Shown: positions 12,603 through 56,481 of the stretch, piece after piece | Position numbering within the stretch: the stretch's first letter is position 1 | Layout: each line of letters starts with the position of its first letter | Assembly (NCBI GenBank): GCA_938085425.1 | Contig: CALKGQ010000008.1 | Coordinates: 1-58,566 of the forward strand | DNA: 58,566 nucleotides | From: an uncultured Flavobacteriales bacterium | GTDB taxonomy: Bacteria > Bacteroidota > Bacteroidia > Flavobacteriales_D > Sanyastnellaceae | Reading direction: 5' to 3' | Program-made: the position numbers and the translations under genes | The notes under the pieces: model-generated | Seen by the model: only the letters and a program-made list of their open reading frames with translations | Databases searched by the model: none | Told to the model about the DNA's origin: nothing

Positions 12603-14393
12603 TCAGTCCAGCTTGAGAACGGCCAGGAAGGCCGATTGAGGCACTTCAACGGTACCGATTTGCCGCATCCGCTTCTTTCCCTTTTTCTGCTTTTCCAAAA
12701 GTTTGCGCTTTCGGGTGATGTCGCCACCGTAGCATTTTGCGGTCACGTCCTTTCGGACCGCAGAGATGGTCTCACGGGCAATGATTTTGGCCCCGATGGC
12801 CGCTTGAAGGGCGATCAAAAATTGCTGTCGGGGGATCAATTGCTTCAGCTTCAGGCAGATTTTTTTGCCCAGGGTGAAGGCGTGGTCCCGGTGGATCAAG
12901 GCGCTCAGCGCATCGACCTGGTCTCCGTTGAGCATGATGTCGAGCTTGACCAGGTGGCTTTGCTTGTATCCATCGGGGAAATAATCGAAGGAGGCATACC
13001 CTCTCGAAATCGTCTTGAGTTTGTCGTAGAAGTCAAACACAATCTCCCCCAGTGGCATGCTGAACGTAAGTTCCACACGGTCGGAAGTCAGGTAAACTTG
13101 GTTGGTGAGGTTTCCGCGCTTTTCAATGCACAGGCTCATGACCGGCCCGACGTATTCAGACTTGGTGATGATTTGTGCTTTGATGAAGGGCTCTTCCACG
13201 TAGTCCAAGTGGTTGGCTTCAGGCAGGTCGCTTGGGTTCATGATCTCCATGAACTCTCCCTTCTTGGTGTAGGCTTTGTAACCGACGTTGGGGACCGTGG
13301 TGATGACGGTCATGTTGAATTCACGTTCCAACCTCTCCTGGATGATTTCCATGTGGAGCATGCCGAGGAACCCGCATCGGAACCCAAACCCCAAAGCGGC
13401 GGAGCTCTCGGGCTCAAAAACCAAGGAGGCGTCGTTGAGTTGCAGTTTTTCCATGGAAGCCCTCAACTCCTCGTAGTCCTCCGTGTCGACGGGGTAAATG
13501 CCTGCAAACACCATGGGCTTCACATCTTCAAACCCCTGAACCGCATCTTGGCAGGGGTTGGCTTGAAGCGTCAGGGTGTCTCCGACCTTGACTTCTTTCG
13601 CATTCTTGATTCCTGAAATGATGTACCCGACATCACCTGCGGACAAATTGGTTTTGGGGGTCAAATCCATGCCCAGAACCCCGATTTCGTCTGCGCCATA
13701 CTCTTTTCCCGTGGCCATGAATTTCACGCGGTCGCCTTTTTGAAGGCTGCCGTTCAGGATGCGGTAGTATGCGATGATGCCCCGAAAGGAATTGAAGACG
13801 GAGTCGAACACCATGGCTTGCAATGGGGCTTCAGGGTCTCCCTTGGGGGCAGGCACCCTATCGACAATGGCCTCGAGGATGGCCTCCACGCCCATCCCTG
13901 TTTTTCCACTTGCAGGAAGAATGTCGTCCATCTTGCAACCGATCAAATCCACAATTTGCTCTCCAACGACTTCCGGGTCCGCGGAGTCCAAATCCATTTT
14001 GTTCAGCACTGGCACAATTTCCAAATCGTGTTCCAACGCCAGGTAAAGGTTGCTGATGGTTTGGGCCTCGATGCCTTGGGTTGCGTCGACGATGAGCAAG
14101 GCCCCCTCGCAAGCCGCGATGGAACGCGACACTTCATAGCTAAAGTCCACGTGCCCCGGGGTGTCGATCAAATTGAAGATGTATTCTTGACCGTCTTCGC
14201 CCTTGTAGTCCATTTGAATGGCGTGGCTCTTGATGGTGATGCCCCTCTCTCGCTCCAAATCCATGTCATCCAAGGTTTGCTCTTGCAACTCACGGTCGGA
14301 AATCGTTCCGGTCGTTTGAAGCAAACGGTCGGCCAAGGTGCTCTTTCCGTGGTCGATGTGTGCGATGATGCAAAAGTTGCGGATGTTCTTCAT
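12603..14393 (-). CDS. lepA: Elongation factor 4 (LepA)
   Basis: A 596-residue ribosome-associated translational GTPase. The G-domain has [23 protein letters not shown] and NKMD. EF-G-like domains follow, and the LepA-specific C-terminal domain includes [25 protein letters not shown] (positions about 555-580). The frame is open 180 bases further upstream, but the conserved protein begins at [25 protein letters not shown] promoter box lies about 60 bases before that ATG. Confidence 0.97.
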
Positions 14394-47889: not shown

Positions 47890-50800
47890 CTAGGACATTA
47901 CGCCGCGTACACTGTGGTCCTTCCAGCCTGGTGGTTGTGCCGTTTTTGGGGGCTGCCTGCGCTTTTGGACAATCCCGCTTTGTACGTTGGAGGGAACCTT
48001 GCCGTTTTCGGCATACCGTGGGTCAGGGAGGGTGGCCAACCGTTCCATTCGGATGGCGTCCACATGGAGGCACCCATACGATTCTCGCACCTTGCCACGT
48101 ATGGCGTAGACCCCGCGACCCCGGAAGGGAAAGTCCTTCGCCACTGTGGGGAAGTGGACCGTGTCCAACCAAGCACCCTCCAGGTCCACGAAACATCCAA
48201 AACACATGCGCTCCCCCTTTGCGGTGGAGGTTTCTTTCACCGTGACGAGGTGGCCCACCACAGTCACGATGTCCCCACGTCGCGACTCGAGATCTCGGAC
48301 CAACACGCCACTTCGGACGACGGCTTTGGCCTTCTCGGAAAGCAAAAGGAATGGGGAAGACAAAGGAAACCCGAGCAATTCCCATTCGTCAAAGGCATCT
48401 GACAATGGCGCGGAGTCCAGCGGAGGAAGGGTGTACGTTTTTGCTGAAACAGGTTTGAAAAGCTCACCTGTGCCCGCGCCGCGCTTTGCAGGCAATGCCC
48501 GAGGCGAGGCGGATGCATGTGAAGCAGGAGGTGGACCGTTGGGTTCCGCGGCCAACAGAAAGTGGCCTTCCCAGAGCAAGGTGTGCTTCGAGGCGCCGGT
48601 GAACCGAAAGGCCCCCACCCGAATGAGGATTTTGAGTTGTTGCAGGGAGGGCCGCACCCGATCGACAAAGTCTTGCAGGGATGCAAAGGGCCCATGTGCT
48701 TCACGTGCCTTGGTGAACCCAATGACGGAAGCGTGCTGCAGGTCCTTGATCAGGTTGAACCCAAGAAAGAGGGAGGAGGTGCCATGAACGACTTTGGCCT
48801 TCATGCCCACCGTATTCACGCACGGAGCTTCGATGCGCGCCCCCAGCATGCGCGCTTCATGGACGTAAAACTCCGTTCGGTAAAAGCCACCAAAGTTGTT
48901 GATGCACGCACACATGTATTCCAGAGGGAAGTGCACTTTGAGGAACAGGCTCTGGTAGCTCTCAACGGCGTACGAAGCGGAGTGTCCTTTGGCGAAGGCG
49001 TAACCGGCGAAGCTTTCCATTTGGCGCCAAACCTCTTTGACAACATGGGAGGGGTGACCTTTTTCCATGGCCTTGGCATGGAAGGCATCTCGGGCAAGGT
49101 CAAATGCTTCGCGGGACCGAAACTTCCCGCTCATTCCACGCCGCAACACGTCGGCTTCGCCCAGGTCGAGCCCAGCGAATTTGTGCGCCACTTTGATCAC
49201 ATCTTCTTGGTACACCATCACCCCGTAGGTTTCGGGCATCAGGTCCATCAACACAGGGTGGGCGTCTTGCCGTTTGTTGGGGTTGCGGTGCCGCTCGATG
49301 TACGCCTGCATCATGCCACTTTTGGCCACGCCGGGTCGAATGACAGAGCTTGCCGCCACCAAACCGAGGTAATCGTCGACCTGCAGTTTTCGCATGAGCA
49401 TGCGCATGGCGGGTGACTCCACGTAGAAGCATCCTGTGGCCCGTGCTTCCCGCAGCATGGCGCGCACGCCTTCGTCCGCCTTGAACCGTCGCATGTCGTG
49501 GATGTCGATGGCCTTGGCGGTGCTGGGGTCTCGGGCTTCCACCATGTCCATGGTGTCTTTGATTTTCCCCAGTCCTCTTTGACTGAGGATGTCAAACTTG
49601 TAAAGGCCCACGTCTTCTGCCACCAGCATGTCAAACTGTACGGTGGGCAGTCCTTTGGGGGGAAGAAAGGTGGCGCCATACCGGTGAATGTCGTCTTGGG
49701 CAATCAACACGCCGCAAGCGTGAAGGGTCAAGCTGCTCGGGAAGTCCCGAAGCACGGCGGCGTATTTCAGCACGACATGCTCCATTTCTCCCAATTGCTG
49801 TGGATGGAAGGTTCCAGCACAGAGAACGTCGATTTCGTGTTTGGCAAGGCCCATGACCTTGCCCAATTCGCGTACAGCAGCCCGGTATTGAAAGGTGTTG
49901 TAGGCCGCAAGCAAGGCGACATTCGGAAAGCGTTGGAACATGTACGCCACAACATCGTCACGGTCTGTCCAGGAGAAATCGATGTCGAAATCGGGTGGAT
50001 TGGCCCGGTACAGGTTGAGAAAGCGCTCGAAGTAAAGGTCGAGCTCGATGGGATCGACATCTGTGATGCGCAACAGATAAGCCACGAGGCTGTTCGCCCC
50101 ACTGCCCCTCCCTACGTGGAAATAACCCTTGCTTCGGGCGTAACTGGTGATGTCCCAATTGATCAAGAAATAGGCCAAATAACCCTGCTGCCGGATCAAC
50201 GCAATCTCGTGTTCCATCCGGTCCAACACCTCTTGGTCGTGATCGGGATAGCGGTAGGCCAAGCCTTCTGCGCACAATGAACGTACCAATGTCTCGTCGC
50301 CGTTTTCACTCCCAGAATAGGTGTGTGGGTTGTTGTGCAACCGGCCCCTGGGGGGCCGGGGCAGCACCATGTGACAAGCGCGGAGCAGTCGATCGGCTTG
50401 CTCGAGCAGCTCGGGCATTTCTTGGTAGGCTTCCCGCAATTCATCAGGGGACCGAAGACAGTCTCGGGGGTCTCCACAGTCGCCAGGATCCAGTCGGCTG
50501 AGCAAGATGTTCAGGTCGATCGATCGCAGCAGCCGATGGGCATTCCAATCTCTTTTGCATGTGAAGGTGGAGGTGGACAAGGCCACGAGGTGGGGCTTCA
50601 ACAGAGGGTCCTTGTCCAATCCTGCCAACCGCAAATCTCCCAGCTCCCATGCCTGCACACCAAGCCATTCATTCGCGCCCAACGGAAGGCCTGGAGAGTT
50701 GCGCCAAGGATAGATGGCGGCGACGCCAGCATGCCGAACCGACGCGGGCAACCGTTGGGGATAAGGAGACCCGTCGAGGTGGTGCTTGGACACCCACTTG

Positions 50801-51057
50801 CACAGTGCACGGTACCCCTCGGGGTGTTGGGCGAGGGCCACAAAGCATTTTTGGTTCCCATTGCGGAGGTCCATTCCCAGAACTGGGGACATCCCCCGCG
50901 CCAATGCGCGTCCAACGAAATCCCAGTTTGCCGAAGTGGTGCCGATGTCTGTCAAGGCCAACCTTTCCAAACCCATGTCCTGGGCGCGGTCCAACAGTTG
51001 GTCAATGGACAGGATGCCGTACCGAAGGCTGAACCTGCTGTGGGTGTTCAGATGCAT
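47890..51057 (-). CDS. dnaE2: Error-prone DNA polymerase III alpha (DnaE2/ImuC-like)
   Basis: A 1,055-residue C-family polymerase, shorter than replicative DnaE. Catalytic Asp residues sit in PPDFDIDF (354-361); GRGSGANS (317-323) and a C-terminal OB-fold are present. The N-terminal PHP domain looks inactive: the usual HLHVHS is HLNTHS (2-7) and ALTDHG is ALTDIG (34-39). This is consistent with a translesion rather than a proofreading enzyme. It is last in an operon after dinB and SRAP, so it is probably damage-induced. Its end is followed by a 116-base gap with a weak hairpin (AGGGGC/GCCCCT, 47813-47840). Confidence 0.9.
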   Translation of the reverse strand: MHLNTHSRFSLRYGILSIDQLLDRAQDMGLERLALTDIGTTSANWDFVGRALARGMSPVLGMDLRNGNQKCFVALAQHPEGYRALCKWVSKHHLDGSPYPQRLPASVRHAGVAAIYPWRNSPGLPLGANEWLGVQAWELGDLRLAGLDKDPLLKPHLVALSTSTFTCKRDWNAHRLLRSIDLNILLSRLDPGDCGDPRDCLRSPDELREAYQEMPELLEQADRLLRACHMVLPRPPRGRLHNNPHTYSGSENGDETLVRSLCAEGLAYRYPDHDQEVLDRMEHEIALIRQQGYLAYFLINWDITSYARSKGYFHVGRGSGANSLVAYLLRITDVDPIELDLYFERFLNLYRANPPDFDIDFSWTDRDDVVAYMFQRFPNVALLAAYNTFQYRAAVRELGKVMGLAKHEIDVLCAGTFHPQQLGEMEHVVLKYAAVLRDFPSSLTLHACGVLIAQDDIHRYGATFLPPKGLPTVQFDMLVAEDVGLYKFDILSQRGLGKIKDTMDMVEARDPSTAKAIDIHDMRRFKADEGVRAMLREARATGCFYVESPAMRMLMRKLQVDDYLGLVAASSVIRPGVAKSGMMQAYIERHRNPNKRQDAHPVLMDLMPETYGVMVYQEDVIKVAHKFAGLDLGEADVLRRGMSGKFRSREAFDLARDAFHAKAMEKGHPSHVVKEVWRQMESFAGYAFAKGHSASYAVESYQSLFLKVHFPLEYMCACINNFGGFYRTEFYVHEARMLGARIEAPCVNTVGMKAKVVHGTSSLFLGFNLIKDLQHASVIGFTKAREAHGPFASLQDFVDRVRPSLQQLKILIRVGAFRFTGASKHTLLWEGHFLLAAEPNGPPPASHASASPRALPAKRGAGTGELFKPVSAKTYTLPPLDSAPLSDAFDEWELLGFPLSSPFLLLSEKAKAVVRSGVLVRDLESRRGDIVTVVGHLVTVKETSTAKGERMCFGCFVDLEGAWLDTVHFPTVAKDFPFRGRGVYAIRGKVRESYGCLHVDAIRMERLATLPDPRYAENGKVPSNVQSGIVQKRRQPPKTAQPPGWKDHSVRGVMS

Positions 51058-51085: not shown

Positions 51086-51970
51086 TCAGTCGAACAGTGA
51101 TCCTTGATGGCCCCAAGTGAGTGGTGAAGCCGCGGAGTGGTCTTTCTGCTCTTGACGTTCTTGGTTTTGGGCAGAGGCGTGCTTTCGTTTGCGTGAAGGC
51201 GACTCCCCCATGCCAAAGACGTCGATGGTGTTGTGGATTTCGTAGGTGAATTCAGGCCATATGCGTGGGCCGACAGCCTGCAGCAAATGGGAACCATTTC
51301 TTCGTGGATCGCGAATGGAGGGGGAAATGGGGTAGGCGTTGAACCGCCTTGCCTCCCAAGGCCCAAGCATGGAGGCCACGTCCTGAAGAGGGGTGTCAGG
51401 GTGGAGCCATTCCCGTTCCCTGTCAGGGTCGAGGATGACAGGTGCACGGTGGTGCCCAACGGCTTGGGTCAAGGCATTCGACACGGTGGTCAATACGGCA
51501 AAAGAACGAACGCTTTCGCCGGTTGAAGGGTCGCACCACTCGTCCCAAATTCCAGCCAAGGCGAACGGCCTTTGGCCTTCGCGGGGGTAGAGAACGTAAG
51601 GCTTGGAAAGTTTCTCCCGTTCTGGCCCTTCGACGAAGGCGTCCGCCACCACAAGGCAGCGTTGGGACCGAATGGCCTTTCGAAACATGGGCTTGTCGAG
51701 GATGCCCATGGCCCCTGTGTAGCTGGGGTCGTTCTCTGCATTTTTGTCCCCCTCTGCCCTTGCGTTGATCATGTAATACTGCTTCTTCGCCCATCCTGGG
51801 GTGAACCCAAACTGCATCAATTGGACTTCTTTGGGGCGGTCACTGGCGACGACGGGGGCATGGTCGCCGTGGCTGACGTTGGTGTTGGCCTTCCAGGGTT
51901 CGTTGGCCTGGACATTGAACCGTTGTTCAACGGCTTGGATGGAGGAGACGGTGACGTATCGGCCGCACAT
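51086..51970 (-). CDS. SOS response-associated peptidase (YedK/HMCES family)
   Basis: A 294-residue SRAP protein that crosslinks through its N-terminal Cys to abasic sites in single-stranded DNA. Cys2 (MCGRYVTV), the Asn in MINARAEG, the Glu in ADAFVEG and the His in GHHRAPVIL form the expected active site. The approximately 45-residue C-terminal tail is basic and of low complexity. It sits between dinB (48 bases away) and dnaE2 (28 bases away), so all three handle damaged templates. Confidence 0.93.
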   Translation of the reverse strand: MCGRYVTVSSIQAVEQRFNVQANEPWKANTNVSHGDHAPVVASDRPKEVQLMQFGFTPGWAKKQYYMINARAEGDKNAENDPSYTGAMGILDKPMFRKAIRSQRCLVVADAFVEGPEREKLSKPYVLYPREGQRPFALAGIWDEWCDPSTGESVRSFAVLTTVSNALTQAVGHHRAPVILDPDREREWLHPDTPLQDVASMLGPWEARRFNAYPISPSIRDPRRNGSHLLQAVGPRIWPEFTYEIHNTIDVFGMGESPSRKRKHASAQNQERQEQKDHSAASPLTWGHQGSLFD

Positions 51971-52018: not shown

Positions 52019-53290
52019 TCATTGGTGCCGGTGGGCAAGGAGGGGAGGTGGCCCTCCGTTGAAGGGGTTGGAACGACCAATGGTTCGGGCTTCCAGTCCG
52101 GCCGCCCTCACCACACTTCGGTCCCCGTATTGCAGACGGATCCGGTCCATGGCTTGGTAAAGCTTCACGCGCTCCTCGGTGTCGTCGAACAGGTTGATTT
52201 GGCACCCACCTCCCACGAGGTGGCTGTACCGAACCCCAATCAACCGAATCCGCACGCGCTTTTGAATCAGTTGGTCCAGCAGGTCTTTCGCCACCGGAAC
52301 GAGTTGGTGGTCGGCCGCCGTGTAGGGGATCCGGCGTTGCATGCTCTTGGTGGAGAAATCGGCGTAGCGCACCTTGACGGTGATGCATGCGGAAAGCTTG
52401 TCTCCCCTCCTCAATTGAAAGGCCAAATTCTCGACCATGGCCAGCATGATGGCGTGAAGCTTTTCTCCATCGGTGGTGTCCTTCGCAAACGTGCGCTCCG
52501 TGGAGATGGACTTCCGCTCGTTGTAGGCCACCACAGGAGCATCGTCAAGCCCTTGCGCTTTTCGCCAAATCGCGCGGCCTTGCTTTCCAAGCACTTGCTC
52601 GATCAACTCGACCGGCATGTTTTGTAGGGTTTGGATGGTGGAGATCCCAAGGTTGCGCAGTGTGCGGTAGGTCTCTGCGCCGACCATGGGGATTTTTCGG
52701 ACAGAGAGCGGCCCCAAGAAATGACGTTCTGTGCCACGGCTGACGTTCCGCGCATTGTTGGGTTTGGCTTCTCCTGTTGCCACTTTGGCCACGGTCTTGC
52801 TCGTGCTCAAACCCAGGGAGATGGGCAGTCCCGTTTCCCGGATGACACGTTCCCGTAGCTCCCTTGAAAATTGCCAGCACCCGAAGAATCGATCCATGCC
52901 TGTGAGGTCGGCATAGAACTCGTCGATGGAGCTTTTTTCACACACCGGAACGGCCTCTCGAACAATGGAGGTGACCAATTCGGACTGCTTGGAGTAGGCT
53001 GCGGAATTCCCACGAATCACAATGGCCTCTGGGCACATGCGTCGGGCCATTTTCATGGCCATGCCAGAATGCACCCCAAAACTTCGCGCTTCGTAGCTGC
53101 ACGAAGCCACCACCCCGCGGTCGCCTGTCCCTCCAATGAGGATGGGGCGGCCCTCTAGGCGTGTGTCCATGCGCCTTTCGACCGACACAAAGAAGGTGTC
53201 CAAGTCCATGTGGAGAATGGACCGCGAATCGCGCCCTGTGGTGTCAGGAACGTCAGGGGAGGTTGAAAAAGGTGTTGCAGAAGAATCCAT
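52019..53290 (-). CDS. dinB: Y-family DNA polymerase (DinB/Pol IV-like)
   Basis: A 423-residue translesion polymerase. The metal-binding residues are intact: Asp29 in HMDLDTFF and Asp123-Glu124 in SSIDEFY. This separates it from the inactive ImuB. HhH, little finger and a beta-clamp-like C-terminus follow. It starts the dinB-SRAP-dnaE2 operon. A TATTTTAG box lies 21 bases before its ATG and is abutted by TTGCTCAT, which also occurs at the LexA-like gene. Confidence 0.93.
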   Translation of the reverse strand: MDSSATPFSTSPDVPDTTGRDSRSILHMDLDTFFVSVERRMDTRLEGRPILIGGTGDRGVVASCSYEARSFGVHSGMAMKMARRMCPEAIVIRGNSAAYSKQSELVTSIVREAVPVCEKSSIDEFYADLTGMDRFFGCWQFSRELRERVIRETGLPISLGLSTSKTVAKVATGEAKPNNARNVSRGTERHFLGPLSVRKIPMVGAETYRTLRNLGISTIQTLQNMPVELIEQVLGKQGRAIWRKAQGLDDAPVVAYNERKSISTERTFAKDTTDGEKLHAIMLAMVENLAFQLRRGDKLSACITVKVRYADFSTKSMQRRIPYTAADHQLVPVAKDLLDQLIQKRVRIRLIGVRYSHLVGGGCQINLFDDTEERVKLYQAMDRIRLQYGDRSVVRAAGLEARTIGRSNPFNGGPPPLLAHRHQ

Positions 53291-53311
53291 GAAGCGGGCC
53301 CAAGTGGCCTG

Positions 53312-53347
53312 CTAAAATAATGAGCAAAACCAAAGAAACGAGCAAAA
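53312..53347 (-). promoter_or_regulatory. dinB promoter with candidate damage operator
   Basis: Read on the minus strand, TTTTGCTC occurs twice as a direct repeat (53347-53340 and 53329-53322), 18 bases apart. The second copy continues as TTGCTCAT and runs directly into the -7-like TATTTTAG (53319-53312). The same element next to the -7 box stands before the LexA-like gene. Confidence 0.55.
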
Positions 53348-53389
53348 AGTTCATTTTTTGGTTCAACACCTCGCAACAAGGGGGTCAGA

Positions 53390-55555
53390 TCATTCGCAAG
53401 TCGCGCCGTACGTCGTCAAGAACACAAGTAGGTCAGACACATTGACGATGCCGTCGCCGTTGAAGTCCGCTGTGCAACCCGACAAGCAACCGTAGTCGGT
53501 CAAGAACATCAGCAAATCGCTGACATCCACAAACCCTCCACCATTGAGGTCGGTGGGGCAGCCACAACTTTCGGGCGACAAAACCTCTCCCACAAAAGTG
53601 GCCGTACAAAGGGGATCCCCCATGACGGTGGCAGTGATGTCCAAAGCCTCTCCTGAGGCGGGCAGCGTGAGCACCACATTCCAAGGATTCTCCCCGCTGA
53701 ATGCCAACATGGAGTCGGCCACGAGGATCACATCTCCGGCCAAAGGTGGACTTTGGAAAGCAAATTCGAGTTCTTGGGTGAAGACGTTGCCAAGCGGACT
53801 GCAGGCCGAGGTTGCCCCAACGGTCATGTCCAAGATGGCACAAGGGAAAGGCACTGAGCCCCAGAATTCCGCACCCTGTTCCGCCGGGTCAGCTTCGACA
53901 TCTCCTTCATAGGTGTAAGGGGGCAGTCCATCGACAAACGTACCATTTTCCCATAGACCATAGATGCTTGCCAAGAACTGTCCGGAATTGCCAGCGGTCC
54001 GCCACTGCACGTAATCGTCAAAAGGCCCCAATTCATCGTACAAAGTCAAGTCGCCTCCTTCGGCATTGTCGGGCCAATTGGGCCACACCAAGGTCAATGT
54101 ACCTCCTGGGGCAATCGATGTGGCTGGCTCAGCCAGATCACTCAATTGCACTTGTGCGGTGCCGGACTTGATGGTTTGCCCAACCAAACTGCCTGAACAA
54201 TCGGAAACATTCCGCACGACAAGGGTCTTGGATTGAGGGTTCACCTCGTCCAAACGAAGCCTTGTGCAGCACGGTTCGGGTGCGGTGAAGAGCGCAGGAG
54301 CGAACCATGAGCAGTCTGGATTTTCTGAGAAATAGGCAGTCACATCCACATCCATTCCATCGGAATCAAGTCCAGACAGCGACACCGCCTGAGGGCTTGA
54401 AATGATTGGAAATTCCACTCCGTTCACCACAAGTACACCTTCTTCTGGCGCATTTTCGTAGGAGATGAGAACTTGCTGTGTGTAAGTGCTGTTCGCAGGA
54501 TTGCATGCCGTTTGCGCCAGGAGGGTGACATTGGAAATGTCGCACAACAAAGGGGGCAAGTTCCATCCCATGTCCTGCATCATGCCCAAGGACACTGCTC
54601 CTGGGGTGTGAATGGCCTCGGACAGGTTGAGAAAGGGCGTCATCAGGGCATTCTCGCTTCCCGAAGGAAAAGAGGATTCTCTCAAATGTGAGAAGCTCGC
54701 TCCTGCCGACCAATTCGTTGGTGCATAAAGCCTTGGACGTCCAGAAGTGTTTGCAGCCAGTCCATTGCTGCCGCTCCAAAACAAGTCGTCGCTCTCCAAG
54801 GCCTCGCCCAAAGGAACGGTGCCACTGATGTATTCGAGGATGGCGTTTTGATCCGATTCTTCAACGAATTCATCATAAATGAATGCCACCCCTTCGAACC
54901 CCAAAAAACCGGAGTTGCCATTGTGGTTGGCGCTTCCGATGTACCCCAAGCCATGTCCCATCTCGTGCAAGGCAACCGTCACGAGGTCGTACAAATCATC
55001 TGGGGTTTCGCCGTCAATCCCTTGGTACCAGTTGACATCTTTGCCAAATTTGACCACCATGTCTGGGGCCGCGGGGTTGAGATCTTCTCCGGCAAGTTGA
55101 TTGGCCAAGGCCACCGCGTATTGGCGGTCTTCGACGGTCGCGCCTGAGAAATTGTTCAGGACTTCATAAGGTGCGGATTGTGCCAAAACGTTGGGGGGGA
55201 GTGAATCCCAGATGGCCTCGATTTGAACGGGGACAACAGATTCAATGGATTGTGCCCAAATGTCCACGGCGCGCTCGATCGCCGGCTTGGCATCTGATGG
55301 AAACTCGGCATCAAACTGCACTTGGATGATGGCGCTCCTGGGCCCTGGGCCCTCCACATACCACGGCGGCGTGGCTACGGAAGAATGGAGGCTGACACCA
55401 GACCCTTGTAGGCCTGGACACAACGTTGTCAAGCAAGTGGCATCATGTCGATGGGCCTGTTGCATGGCTTGCAGGACAGAGGGTCCGCAGAAATGTTGGC
55501 CGTGTGCCCACGTGGTGAGCATCAAGCCAAGTAGAAGGAGTGTGCAGCGCATCAT
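53390..55555 (-). CDS. Secreted zinc metalloprotease with dockerin-like C-terminus
   Basis: A 721-residue exported protein. Signal peptide to about residue 20 (TTWAHG). The protease domain has the zinc site VALHEMGHGLGYIGSA and the MTPFLN/MQDMGW segments typical of this group. Two related Cys-rich modules of about 95 residues (starting CDISNVTLLAQTACNP and CAILDMTVGATSACSP) flank a lamin-tail-like domain. Two dockerin-like loops (TDLNGGGFVDVSDLLMFL, ADFNGDGIVNVSDLLVFL) end it. It lies between the repressor and the dinB operon but has no obvious link to DNA repair. Either of two adjacent ATGs may be the start. Confidence 0.85.
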   Translation of the reverse strand: MMRCTLLLLGLMLTTWAHGQHFCGPSVLQAMQQAHRHDATCLTTLCPGLQGSGVSLHSSVATPPWYVEGPGPRSAIIQVQFDAEFPSDAKPAIERAVDIWAQSIESVVPVQIEAIWDSLPPNVLAQSAPYEVLNNFSGATVEDRQYAVALANQLAGEDLNPAAPDMVVKFGKDVNWYQGIDGETPDDLYDLVTVALHEMGHGLGYIGSANHNGNSGFLGFEGVAFIYDEFVEESDQNAILEYISGTVPLGEALESDDLFWSGSNGLAANTSGRPRLYAPTNWSAGASFSHLRESSFPSGSENALMTPFLNLSEAIHTPGAVSLGMMQDMGWNLPPLLCDISNVTLLAQTACNPANSTYTQQVLISYENAPEEGVLVVNGVEFPIISSPQAVSLSGLDSDGMDVDVTAYFSENPDCSWFAPALFTAPEPCCTRLRLDEVNPQSKTLVVRNVSDCSGSLVGQTIKSGTAQVQLSDLAEPATSIAPGGTLTLVWPNWPDNAEGGDLTLYDELGPFDDYVQWRTAGNSGQFLASIYGLWENGTFVDGLPPYTYEGDVEADPAEQGAEFWGSVPFPCAILDMTVGATSACSPLGNVFTQELEFAFQSPPLAGDVILVADSMLAFSGENPWNVVLTLPASGEALDITATVMGDPLCTATFVGEVLSPESCGCPTDLNGGGFVDVSDLLMFLTDYGCLSGCTADFNGDGIVNVSDLLVFLTTYGATCE

Positions 55556-55617
55556 ATTCGTCAAATCGTAGTTATCGAACATAAATATACGATATAAATT
55601 TTATATAATTCGACGAG
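55556..55617. promoter_or_regulatory. AT-rich dyad region between metalloprotease and LexA-like gene
   Basis: Strikingly AT-rich for this genome. It holds the 15-base palindrome ATATAAA-T-TTTATAT (55592-55606) inside outer arms TCGTC (55558-55562) and GACGA (55612-55616). TACGATTTG on the minus strand (55570-55562) is a near -7 box for the metalloprotease. Confidence 0.45.
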
Positions 55618-55648
55618 ATGATGGTTTTCTTCGTCCAACGCGCCCTTG

Positions 55649-55679
55649 GCTCATTTTACGAGCATTGCTCATATCTTCG
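55649..55679 (+). promoter_or_regulatory. Promoter/operator of the LexA-like gene
   Basis: Two overlapping dyads, GCTC-N7-GAGC (55649-55663) and GAGCA-T-TGCTC (55660-55670), end in TTGCTCAT (55665-55672). This runs into the -7 box TATCTTCG (55672-55679), which is 4 bases before the ATG. A repressor bound here would block RNA polymerase. Confidence 0.6.
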
Positions 55680-55683
55680 GCGA

Positions 55684-56481
55684 ATGCAGAGCAAATTGCC
55701 AGAAAACTTGAAGGCCTATCGAAAGGAAAAAGGCTGGACCCAGCAGGCCTTGGCCGACCGCTTGGGCCTTACACGTCCCACCCTTGGTGCGTACGAAGAA
55801 GGACGATCGGAGCCCAAACTGTCCGTGTTGATCGACATGGCCTCCTGCTTTGGGACGTCAGTGGATGCCTTGGTGCGAGGAAGTGAGGAAGCCCAAACAG
55901 AGGAACGGGCGCGTGGTGAAGGGTTGCGCATCTTGACCGTTTCCGTCGATGCGGCTTCCGACAGGGAGAGGGTGGTGGTGGTGCCTGTCAAGGCGGCGGC
56001 AGGGTACGCCCATGGGTATGGAGATCCCAGTTGGGTGTCGCAGTTGCCGACGTTTGGTCTTCCCTTGAAGGAACTTGCACCGGACGCGACCTACCGCATG
56101 TTCCAGATTGAAGGTGACAGCATGTTGCCCATTCCCTCGGGCAGTTACATCCTCTGTCAATACGTGGAGGATTGGATGAGTGTAGGGGGACATCGTCCCC
56201 ATGTGATTGTGACCCAAAACGATGGGGTGGTTTTCAAACGGATTGAAAACGACCTGCCTGGGGGCAGCCGTTTGGTGTTGCACAGCGACAACCCCGCCTT
56301 TGCACCCTATGCCATTGCAGGAGACGATGTGGTGGAGGTGTGGAGGGCGGCAGCTTACCTGAGTTTTGAATTGCCCTCAGCCTTGGATGGCCAGCCGGCT
56401 TCTGCGGCAAGTGTGCGCAGCGCATTGGACACCCTTCGCGGGGAGATCCATGCTTTGAAAAACAACGAGGCCTCCTCTTAA
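55684..56481 (+). CDS. LexA-like self-cleaving repressor (XRE HTH + S24 peptidase)
   Basis: A 265-residue regulator. An N-terminal XRE helix-turn-helix (about 6-65: WTQQALADRLGLTRPTLGAYE) is joined to an S24 peptidase domain. The Ala106-Gly107 cleavage site is in KAAAGYAHG, with catalytic Ser146 (EGDSMLP) and Lys185 (VVFKRI). It would self-cleave on RecA-ssDNA. Classical LexA has a winged-helix reader; this one uses an XRE domain. The frame is open from 55618 but that ATG lies before the operator and -7 box, so 55684 is the start. Its stop shares TTAA with convergent nfuA-like. Confidence 0.9.
   Translation: MQSKLPENLKAYRKEKGWTQQALADRLGLTRPTLGAYEEGRSEPKLSVLIDMASCFGTSVDALVRGSEEAQTEERARGEGLRILTVSVDAASDRERVVVVPVKAAAGYAHGYGDPSWVSQLPTFGLPLKELAPDATYRMFQIEGDSMLPIPSGSYILCQYVEDWMSVGGHRPHVIVTQNDGVVFKRIENDLPGGSRLVLHSDNPAFAPYAIAGDDVVEVWRAAAYLSFELPSALDGQPASAASVRSALDTLRGEIHALKNNEASS

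Follow-up and report, generated by a model that had tools for sequence, protein, structure and literature searches.

We analysed a 58,566-nucleotide stretch of DNA, the window, which is contig C8 of the genome of an uncultured Flavobacteriales bacterium (2.07 Mb in 56 contigs, estimated completeness 97.8%). In the window, a TTGCTCA element runs into the −7 boxes of two genes, one encoding a LexA-like repressor with XRE-type and S24 domains and the other being dinB. We estimate a probability of roughly 0.85 that this element is an operator half-site for the XRE-S24 repressor, with the operator present at the two promoters and derived from the known CTAA-N5-TTAG box. The repressor would then probably act as a minimal SOS-like switch that regulates itself and controls translesion polymerases. 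Directly supported are the palindromic layout of the element, its conservation in the genus, its restriction to two promoters as far as our scans reach, the S24 residues of the repressor and the kinship of this protein with repressors that have CTAA-N5-TTAG in their promoters.

The octamer TTGCTCAT occurs at 53320-53327 (minus strand) and 55665-55672 (plus strand), with a third copy at 14092-14099 (minus strand). The dinB −7 box, TATTTTAG (53312-53319, minus strand), was assigned from the sequence. The repressor −7 box, TATCTTCG (55672-55679, plus strand), was assigned from the sequence and, in part, from the Bacteroidetes promoter consensus; TATCTTGG or TATATTGT forms this box in four congeners.

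Comparison of the promoters identifies TTGCTCA as the left arm of an N5-spaced palindrome, not as a free-standing octamer. The predicted dinB operator, TTGCTCA-TTATT-TTAGCAG (53309-53327, minus strand), is a 19-base 7-5-7 palindrome that spans the −7 box and has one mismatch to TTGCTMR-N5-YKAGCAA. At the repressor gene, predicted site 1, TGGCTCA-TTTTA-CGAGCAT (55647-55665, plus strand), contains GCTC-N7-GAGC (55649-55663) and has the same 7-N5-7 layout. The original prediction overlooked both that the dinB TTGCTCA and −7 box form a single palindrome and that the repressor GCTC-N7-GAGC shares this layout. In both promoters, another GCTC arm is present at a distance of 18 bases. At dinB, repeats of TTTTGCTC lie at 53322-53329 and 53340-53347, 18 bases apart, and the second site, TTGCTCG-TTTCT-TTGGTTT (53327-53345, minus strand), is 18 bases upstream of the first, with a good left and a weak right arm. 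Repressor site 2, TTGCTCA-TATCT-TCGGCGA (55665-55683, plus strand), overlaps the −7 box, and only its left arm is good.

By itself, the octamer occurs in the window at close to chance frequency (three copies, with 2.39 expected from shuffles), and GAGCANTGCTC with at most two mismatches is found 26 times, with 31.8 expected. As there is no excess, we rejected the bare octamer as a regulon marker. The combination TTGCTCA-N0-2-TANNTTNG is found in the source genome only at the dinB and repressor promoters. It has nine matches in the 11 genomes of the genus, compared to two for the reversed pattern; the nine are seven dinB promoters, the repressor promoter of the window and one place inside a coding frame of G003. 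The congeners' repressor promoters miss the combination, as their bases differ there (ATGCTCAT in G005, G007 and G010).

It is conceivable that TTGCTCA is a core promoter element (a TTTG −33 box or part of an extended −7 box) and not an operator. Bacteroidetes promoters have a TTTG-like −33 element, which the TTTG resembles, and TTGCTCA adjoins the −7 box in both promoters. However, it is combined with a −7 box at only two places in the entire genome, and not at promoters generally. Moreover, the spacing to the upstream TTG is 23 in both promoters, which is longer than the optimum. In G001, the operator block is kept although the candidate −7 box is further downstream, such that the block lies upstream of this box and not against it; this favours an operator over a simple promoter box. 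We therefore consider a core promoter element highly unlikely.

The predicted operator is conserved within the genus. At dinB it is kept, with variation in its last base, in all seven genus genomes that have a readable dinB promoter, as well as in G013, a member of another genus, where the site is TTGCTCATTATTTTAGCAA. The TGCTCG of the second dinB site is kept in the same seven genus genomes, but not in G013. An N5 palindrome occurs in six of the seven repressor promoters of the genus. Site 1 reads TTGCTCA-N5-CGAGCAA in G005, G007 and G010, with zero mismatches to TTGCTMR-N5-YKAGCAA, ATGCTCA-N5-CGAGCAT in G003 and ATGCTCG-N5-TGAGCAT in G001. The TGCTCAT of site 2 is also retained in six of the seven. 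The exception, G004, has no separate repressor site; its dinB and repressor genes are divergent, less than 100 bases apart, and the dinB sites are common to both. Five of the six repressor promoters contain a perfect 6+6 dyad (p = 0.0135-0.036 each in shuffles of 80 upstream bases, the sequences being related). A second GCTC arm is found 18 bases upstream of the proximal arm in 12 of 13 aligned promoters, the exception being dinB of G013. Over the 11 genus genomes, the operator pattern has four zero-mismatch matches, all of them at repressor or dinB promoters.

Related boxes have been published. PMC8565304 (2021) describes XRE/CI-type S24 repressors as the non-canonical LexA proteins of Bacteroidetes, which bind GGA-N5-TCC or CTAA-N5-TTAG. 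Their targets are the repressor gene itself, dinB and dnaE, to which several species add SRAP genes. The same source reports that homologues bind such palindromes and that mitomycin C induces the repressor and polymerase genes. It also describes diverged N5 palindromes in Weeksellaceae and small regulons in some clades. Neither the dinB nor the repressor promoter of the window contains a copy of GGA-N5-TCC, and the window has no exact copy of CTAA-N5-TTAG. The dinB promoter is one mismatch away from the latter (CTCA-N5-TTAG), and the repressor promoter has no match within two.

Outside the genus, we studied 77 repressor loci (80 minus three genus members), using as criterion at least seven of eight core matches to CTMA-N5-TKAG. 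An upstream site was found at 51 of these loci, and 34 have all eight matches. Half-sites of the best outside-genus sites (n = 102) include 79 CTAA and six CTCA; as the scan accepts A or C at position 3 and no G at position 4, CTCG arms are possibly undercounted. Within the genus, the arms of the main repressor sites are CTCA (6/12) and CTCG (6/12) in six genomes, with G004 left out, and those of the main dinB sites are CTCA (7/14) and CTAA (7/14), each dinB site being a hybrid in all seven genomes. The nearest other genera are intermediate: G018 has TTGCTCA-TGGAT-TTAGCAT together with CTAA-AAATT-TTAG, and the dinB site of G013 given above is also of this type. Where outside loci have a second site within 40 bases of the best one, the spacing is 17 or 18 in 10 of 18 cases. 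On this comparison, the box of the genus derives from the known CTAA-N5-TTAG. We found no paper on this derived box in Bacteroidetes among open-licence PMC papers.

The repressor itself (265 amino acids; 55684-56481, plus strand) has Pfam matches to HTH_3 (PF01381, a CI-type helix-turn-helix (HTH) domain) at its N-terminus (residues 9-62, 2e-16) and to Peptidase_S24 (1.9e-6). Residues A106, S146 and K185 are invariant in 26 homologues and in 48 sequences, and G107 is invariant in the 26 and conserved in at least 90% of the 48. The roles of the Ala-Gly cleavage bond and the Ser-Lys dyad were assigned following the description in PMC8565304. A structure model has an all-helical HTH and a LexA-like S24 part, with a mean predicted local distance difference test (pLDDT) score of 81; it also has an extra C-terminal helix (residues 241-264, block pLDDT 63-82) after a linker (231-240) that scores below 50. 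A fold search was led by chains of a phage 186/lambda hybrid repressor and of LexA, with full-length root-mean-square deviations mostly of 14-18 Å. Domains of the P22 c2 and 434 repressors are among the matches, as are HppE epoxidase chains. A profile search of the PDB matched mostly the HTH alone.

By sequence, the repressor thus appears to be of the non-canonical LexA kind; we claim membership in this family and not the motif of its CTAA-N5-TTAG subgroup. In a tree of 48 proteins (47 homologues, including two from Pontibacter and one from Hymenobacter), four genus proteins form one supported clade. This tree has a midpoint root and includes neither a GGA-group, LexA or phage outgroup nor the tested P. 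actiniarum protein. The recognition helix opens with Thr30-Arg31-Pro32-Thr33 in the genus, whereas nearer relatives have Lys or Asn at position 30, or Ser in L192. Thr at this position also occurs in distant homologues that have no clear CTAA site (L028, L135, L136, L141 and L142). As a guess, residue 30 might read the changed base of the box.

The comparison supports part of the original prediction. The motifs that it listed are all present at their positions, TTGCTCA lies against a −7 box in the source genome at dinB and the repressor only, and conservation in the orthologous promoters of the genus was found. Its suggestion of an operator for the XRE-S24 repressor, with autoregulation and control of dinB-SRAP-dnaE, is supported as likely by the conserved promoters and by the fact that this protein is the only S24 match in the genome. 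By contrast, the view that the box is unrelated to known LexA boxes is not supported, as the box appears to derive from one of the two published Bacteroidetes LexA-like boxes.

Within the limits of our scans, the regulon looks minimal, consisting of the dinB and repressor promoters. We searched 40 genomes with a 43-column promoter profile, with 150 candidates from a first look scored in each genome (out of 778 in the source genome). Only the promoters of seven dinB and five repressor genes of the genus, and that of dinB in G013, score E < 1e-6. The matches that follow are in G012 (E = 4e-4), in G047 (E = 0.002, at codon 31 of a 596-codon frame) and at the repressor of G001 (E = 0.004). The best other match in the source genome (E = 0.25, contig C18) is at codon 403 of a 418-codon frame. 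With at most one mismatch, the operator pattern has 31 sites in the 11 genus genomes and its reversed form 18; ten of the 31 are repressor or dinB promoters, and the remaining 21 are at about the control level.

With at most two mismatches there are 40 sites in the source genome, of which 38 are centred within open frames of 161 codons or more. The other two are the dinB site, which lies in no frame longer than 86 codons, and the repressor site, in a 5′ extension of the repressor's own 290-codon frame. Five of the 38 are within 40 codons of the start of the largest frame containing them, and we re-examined these. One is in a nitronate monooxygenase-like frame, one covers the stop of a 387-codon frame, and one is, as read from the sequence, apparently in a dockerin repeat. 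Of the remaining two, one falls where a DUF983 gene ends, ahead of a 327-codon frame that has no Pfam match, and the other is near a contig end. No known repair gene is among the four frames near these sites that were run against Pfam. The genome scans yielded no further convincing target; uvrA and other repair promoters were covered by these scans only, and sites too diverged for them could still exist.

Several observations weigh against an operator of this form and extent. The window's repressor site is the poorest copy, reaching at best 4/6 at the N5 spacing (shuffle p = 0.91), which is no notable dyad alone. Other spacings likewise reach 6/6 in L004 and L007, only one arm of the second dinB site is good, and 26 of the 77 outside loci have no site by the above criterion. 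The 40 sites of the source genome are fewer than the 56 of the reversed pattern, which means that genes cannot be found with the pattern alone. The pattern was fixed after the congeners had been seen, and the profile was derived from promoters that it then found; the profile search therefore shows confinement and is not an independent discovery. The G012 match lies in a 145-codon frame, and this genome has only a short HTH match to the repressor. In G003, a TTTTGCTCATTTTTTTTGCGCA stretch (G003:C134:4047-4068, L305; E = 0.007) upstream of a 513-codon frame is possibly an extra target, although it occurs in this genome only. The recA gene has no box in any of the 11 genus genomes: in 280 bases around its start, there is no TTGCTC and no site with fewer than four mismatches. 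Lastly, GAGCA-W-TGCTC is equally conserved in the six repressor promoters.

This last point raises the alternative that the operator is the 11-base GAGC-A-W-T-GCTC, which can be read as GAG-N5-CTC with the geometry of the GGA-N5-TCC box, and that TTGCTCAT at dinB is only a half-site. The sequence GAGCAWTGCTC is kept in six of the seven genus repressor promoters (not in G004) and occurs exactly, as GAGCA-T-TGCTC, at 55660-55670 in the repressor promoter of the window. However, GAG-N5-CTC is absent from the dinB promoters of the genus, which are nearly identical over the site, whereas the 7-N5-7 palindrome fits both promoters as well as the CTAA-N5-TTAG of the relatives. The 11-base operator is thus improbable in our estimation.

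A large regulon was rejected, given that 38 of the 40 sites are centred in open frames. Control of recA by the element was also rejected, because no site is near the recA start in the 11 genomes; as a control for that scan, five repressor promoters are at zero to two mismatches from the operator pattern. The original prediction had expected enrichment at recA, and neither a box near this gene nor an excess of sites in the genome scans was found. The outcome that it named as a refutation, a lack of enrichment of the element at repair genes, is seen for recA but not for dinB.

The recA loci of the genus instead carry another palindrome, CTCCGTAA-N5-TTACGGAG, with a one-base variant in G001. With at most one mismatch, TCCGTAA-N5-TTACGGA occurs twice per genome in 10 of the 11 genus genomes and once in G001, or 21 times in total compared to two for the reversed pattern. 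The copies in the source genome are at recA (L101, on G000:C30) and at L130:7751-7769 (G000:C4), with no others. It could be argued from this separate element that TTGCTCA belongs to a different, unlinked regulator and that the XRE-S24 protein acts elsewhere, as the operator role of this protein rests on comparison. However, the protein is the sole Pfam S24 match in the source genome, the repressor-dinB neighbourhood is kept in many loci of the order and homologues are reported to bind the parent motif (PMC8565304). An unlinked regulator is the least probable of the alternatives that we considered. Seven genus genomes have one S24 match each, and four less complete ones have none.

The second copy of the recA-type palindrome follows a gene with WYL and WCX domains in the source genome and in eight others examined. 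We surveyed recA and WYL loci that include L277-L303 and L308-L337. Within 200 bases around the recA start, GTAA-N5-TTAC is found at 26 of 38 loci (10 of 11 in the genus and 16 of 27 outside it), compared to five occurrences in the other 139 kb of these loci. In the 560 bases that follow the WYL gene, an exact copy is present in 13 of 30 loci and a copy with TTGC in ten more, nine of which are in the genus. The motif CGTAART-N3-TTRCG has two matches in the source genome and zero to eight per genome over 40 genomes; additional sites may thus exist in other genera. In G042, recA lies about 1 kb downstream of the end of the WYL gene. In the source genome, a gene for a small conserved protein without Pfam or NCBIfam match (L130:7419-7700, minus strand) directly follows the WYL-linked palindrome, and a DUF6272 gene comes next.

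WYL proteins are described in the mycobacterial DNA-damage response, namely PafBC (PMC6789036) and SiwR (PMC10693628). We found no open-licence PMC paper that ties a WYL protein or the WYL-recA palindrome to recA in Bacteroidetes. It is tentatively possible, although we consider it rather doubtful, that the damage response is split, with the XRE-S24 repressor shrunk to an autoregulated switch for translesion polymerases and the WYL protein regulating recA via CGTAART-N3-TTRCG, a palindrome that many members of the order have both ahead of recA and shortly behind the WYL gene.

For the XRE-S24 repressor, we propose the following mechanism. A repressor dimer would read TTGCTCR-N5-YKAGCAA, a genus-level derivative of CTAA-N5-TTAG. 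Each promoter would offer two sites at a distance of 18 bases, of which one is good and the other has a single good arm. Repressor bound to the promoter-proximal site, over the −7 box, would block RNA polymerase. The repressor would thereby limit its own synthesis and silence dinB-SRAP-dnaE. Upon DNA damage, RecA filaments would cause self-cleavage at Ala106-Gly107 by Ser146 and Lys185, which would free both promoters. Binding, repression, RecA-triggered cleavage, induction and the operon structure are what we infer here from comparison.

The genes that would be controlled are as follows. The dinB gene (52019-53290, minus strand) encodes a 423-residue Y-family polymerase IV (Pfam IMS, 3.7e-42; one NCBIfam DNA polymerase IV model above its cut-off). 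The SRAP protein gene (51086-51970, minus strand; Pfam SRAP, 6.9e-46) is 48 bases downstream of dinB on the same strand. Another 28 bases downstream is the gene for a 1055-residue DnaE-type polymerase III alpha subunit (47890-51057, minus strand; Pfam DNA_pol3_alpha, 3.7e-56), which scores above the cut-off of the NCBIfam polc model and below that of error-prone DNA polymerase PRK05672. The three genes presumably form one operon. A predicted hairpin would open the dinB transcript right before the start codon (53287-53311, minus strand); its arms vary among congeners, yet they still pair in all six folded leaders (of seven), at −6.7 to −18.7 kcal/mol.

We place the repressor start at the ATG at 55684 and not at the upstream in-frame ATG at 55618; homology among congeners starts there, right after the conserved operator. 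This ATG is 4 bases after the −7 box, and the distance is 4 or 5 bases in four congeners. The repressor mRNA is probably leaderless, with a predicted transcription start at or beside the ATG.

Between dinB and the repressor lies a gene for a metalloprotease-like protein of 730 residues (53390-55582, minus strand), which resembles NF038122 below the model cut-off and has a GC-type dockerin end. Such a gene lies between the two in several genera, but not in G004, G018 and L184. Other families of the order have the repressor gene, dinB and the SRAP gene in a row on one strand (e.g., L204, L207, L208 and L212), and one operator can therefore serve all of them. In the genus of the window, the repressor and dinB are divergent, with the metalloprotease gene between them in six of seven genomes. 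Each promoter therefore needs its own copy of the box, which explains why the element is seen twice.

These results extend the Bacteroidetes SOS system of 2021 to a lineage for which the closest named records are metagenome assemblies that carry the labels Flavobacteriales, Crocinitomicaceae or Bacteroidetes. The box seems to be caught in the middle of a change: the main dinB sites are hybrids of a CTCA and a CTAA arm, whereas the main repressor sites have changed completely, with CTCA or CTCG in all 12 arms. This change is accompanied by one where the recognition helix begins, in comparison with nearer relatives, such that SOS box drift could be tested with few mutants. The recA gene appears to be outside the regulon, and SOS networks without recA are known from other bacteria according to PMC13148647, yet here recA has a separate palindrome that recurs in the order. 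The question that follows is how recA is controlled in these bacteria.

Among known systems, the closest is the P. actiniarum type of non-canonical LexA, as described in PMC8565304. It shares with our repressor the XRE/CI-type HTH with an S24 domain, the conserved cleavage residues, the extra C-terminal helix (in our model), a dyad-N5-dyad operator, often with two sites per promoter, and its own gene plus dinB, dnaE and SRAP as targets. In the present genus, however, the half-site is CTCA or CTCG instead of CTAA, Thr30 replaces the Lys or Asn of nearer relatives and the regulon apparently contains only the repressor and polymerase genes, without recA. The Weeksellaceae regulators (TTAC-N5-GTAA in E. 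anophelis, PMC8565304) similarly have a diverged N5 palindrome in their own promoter beside an error-prone polymerase gene. The bases are different, though, and the divergence there is linked to paralogy, whereas we found a single S24 gene. HdiR of Streptococcaceae and UmuDAb of Moraxellaceae resemble our system in having a small regulon centred on error-prone polymerases, a likeness that follows their description in PMC8565304 and not their boxes, and they belong to other repressor lineages. Canonical LexA shares the S24 domain and the logic of autoregulation and polymerase control, but it has a winged HTH in place of the all-helical, XRE-type DNA-binding domain found here.

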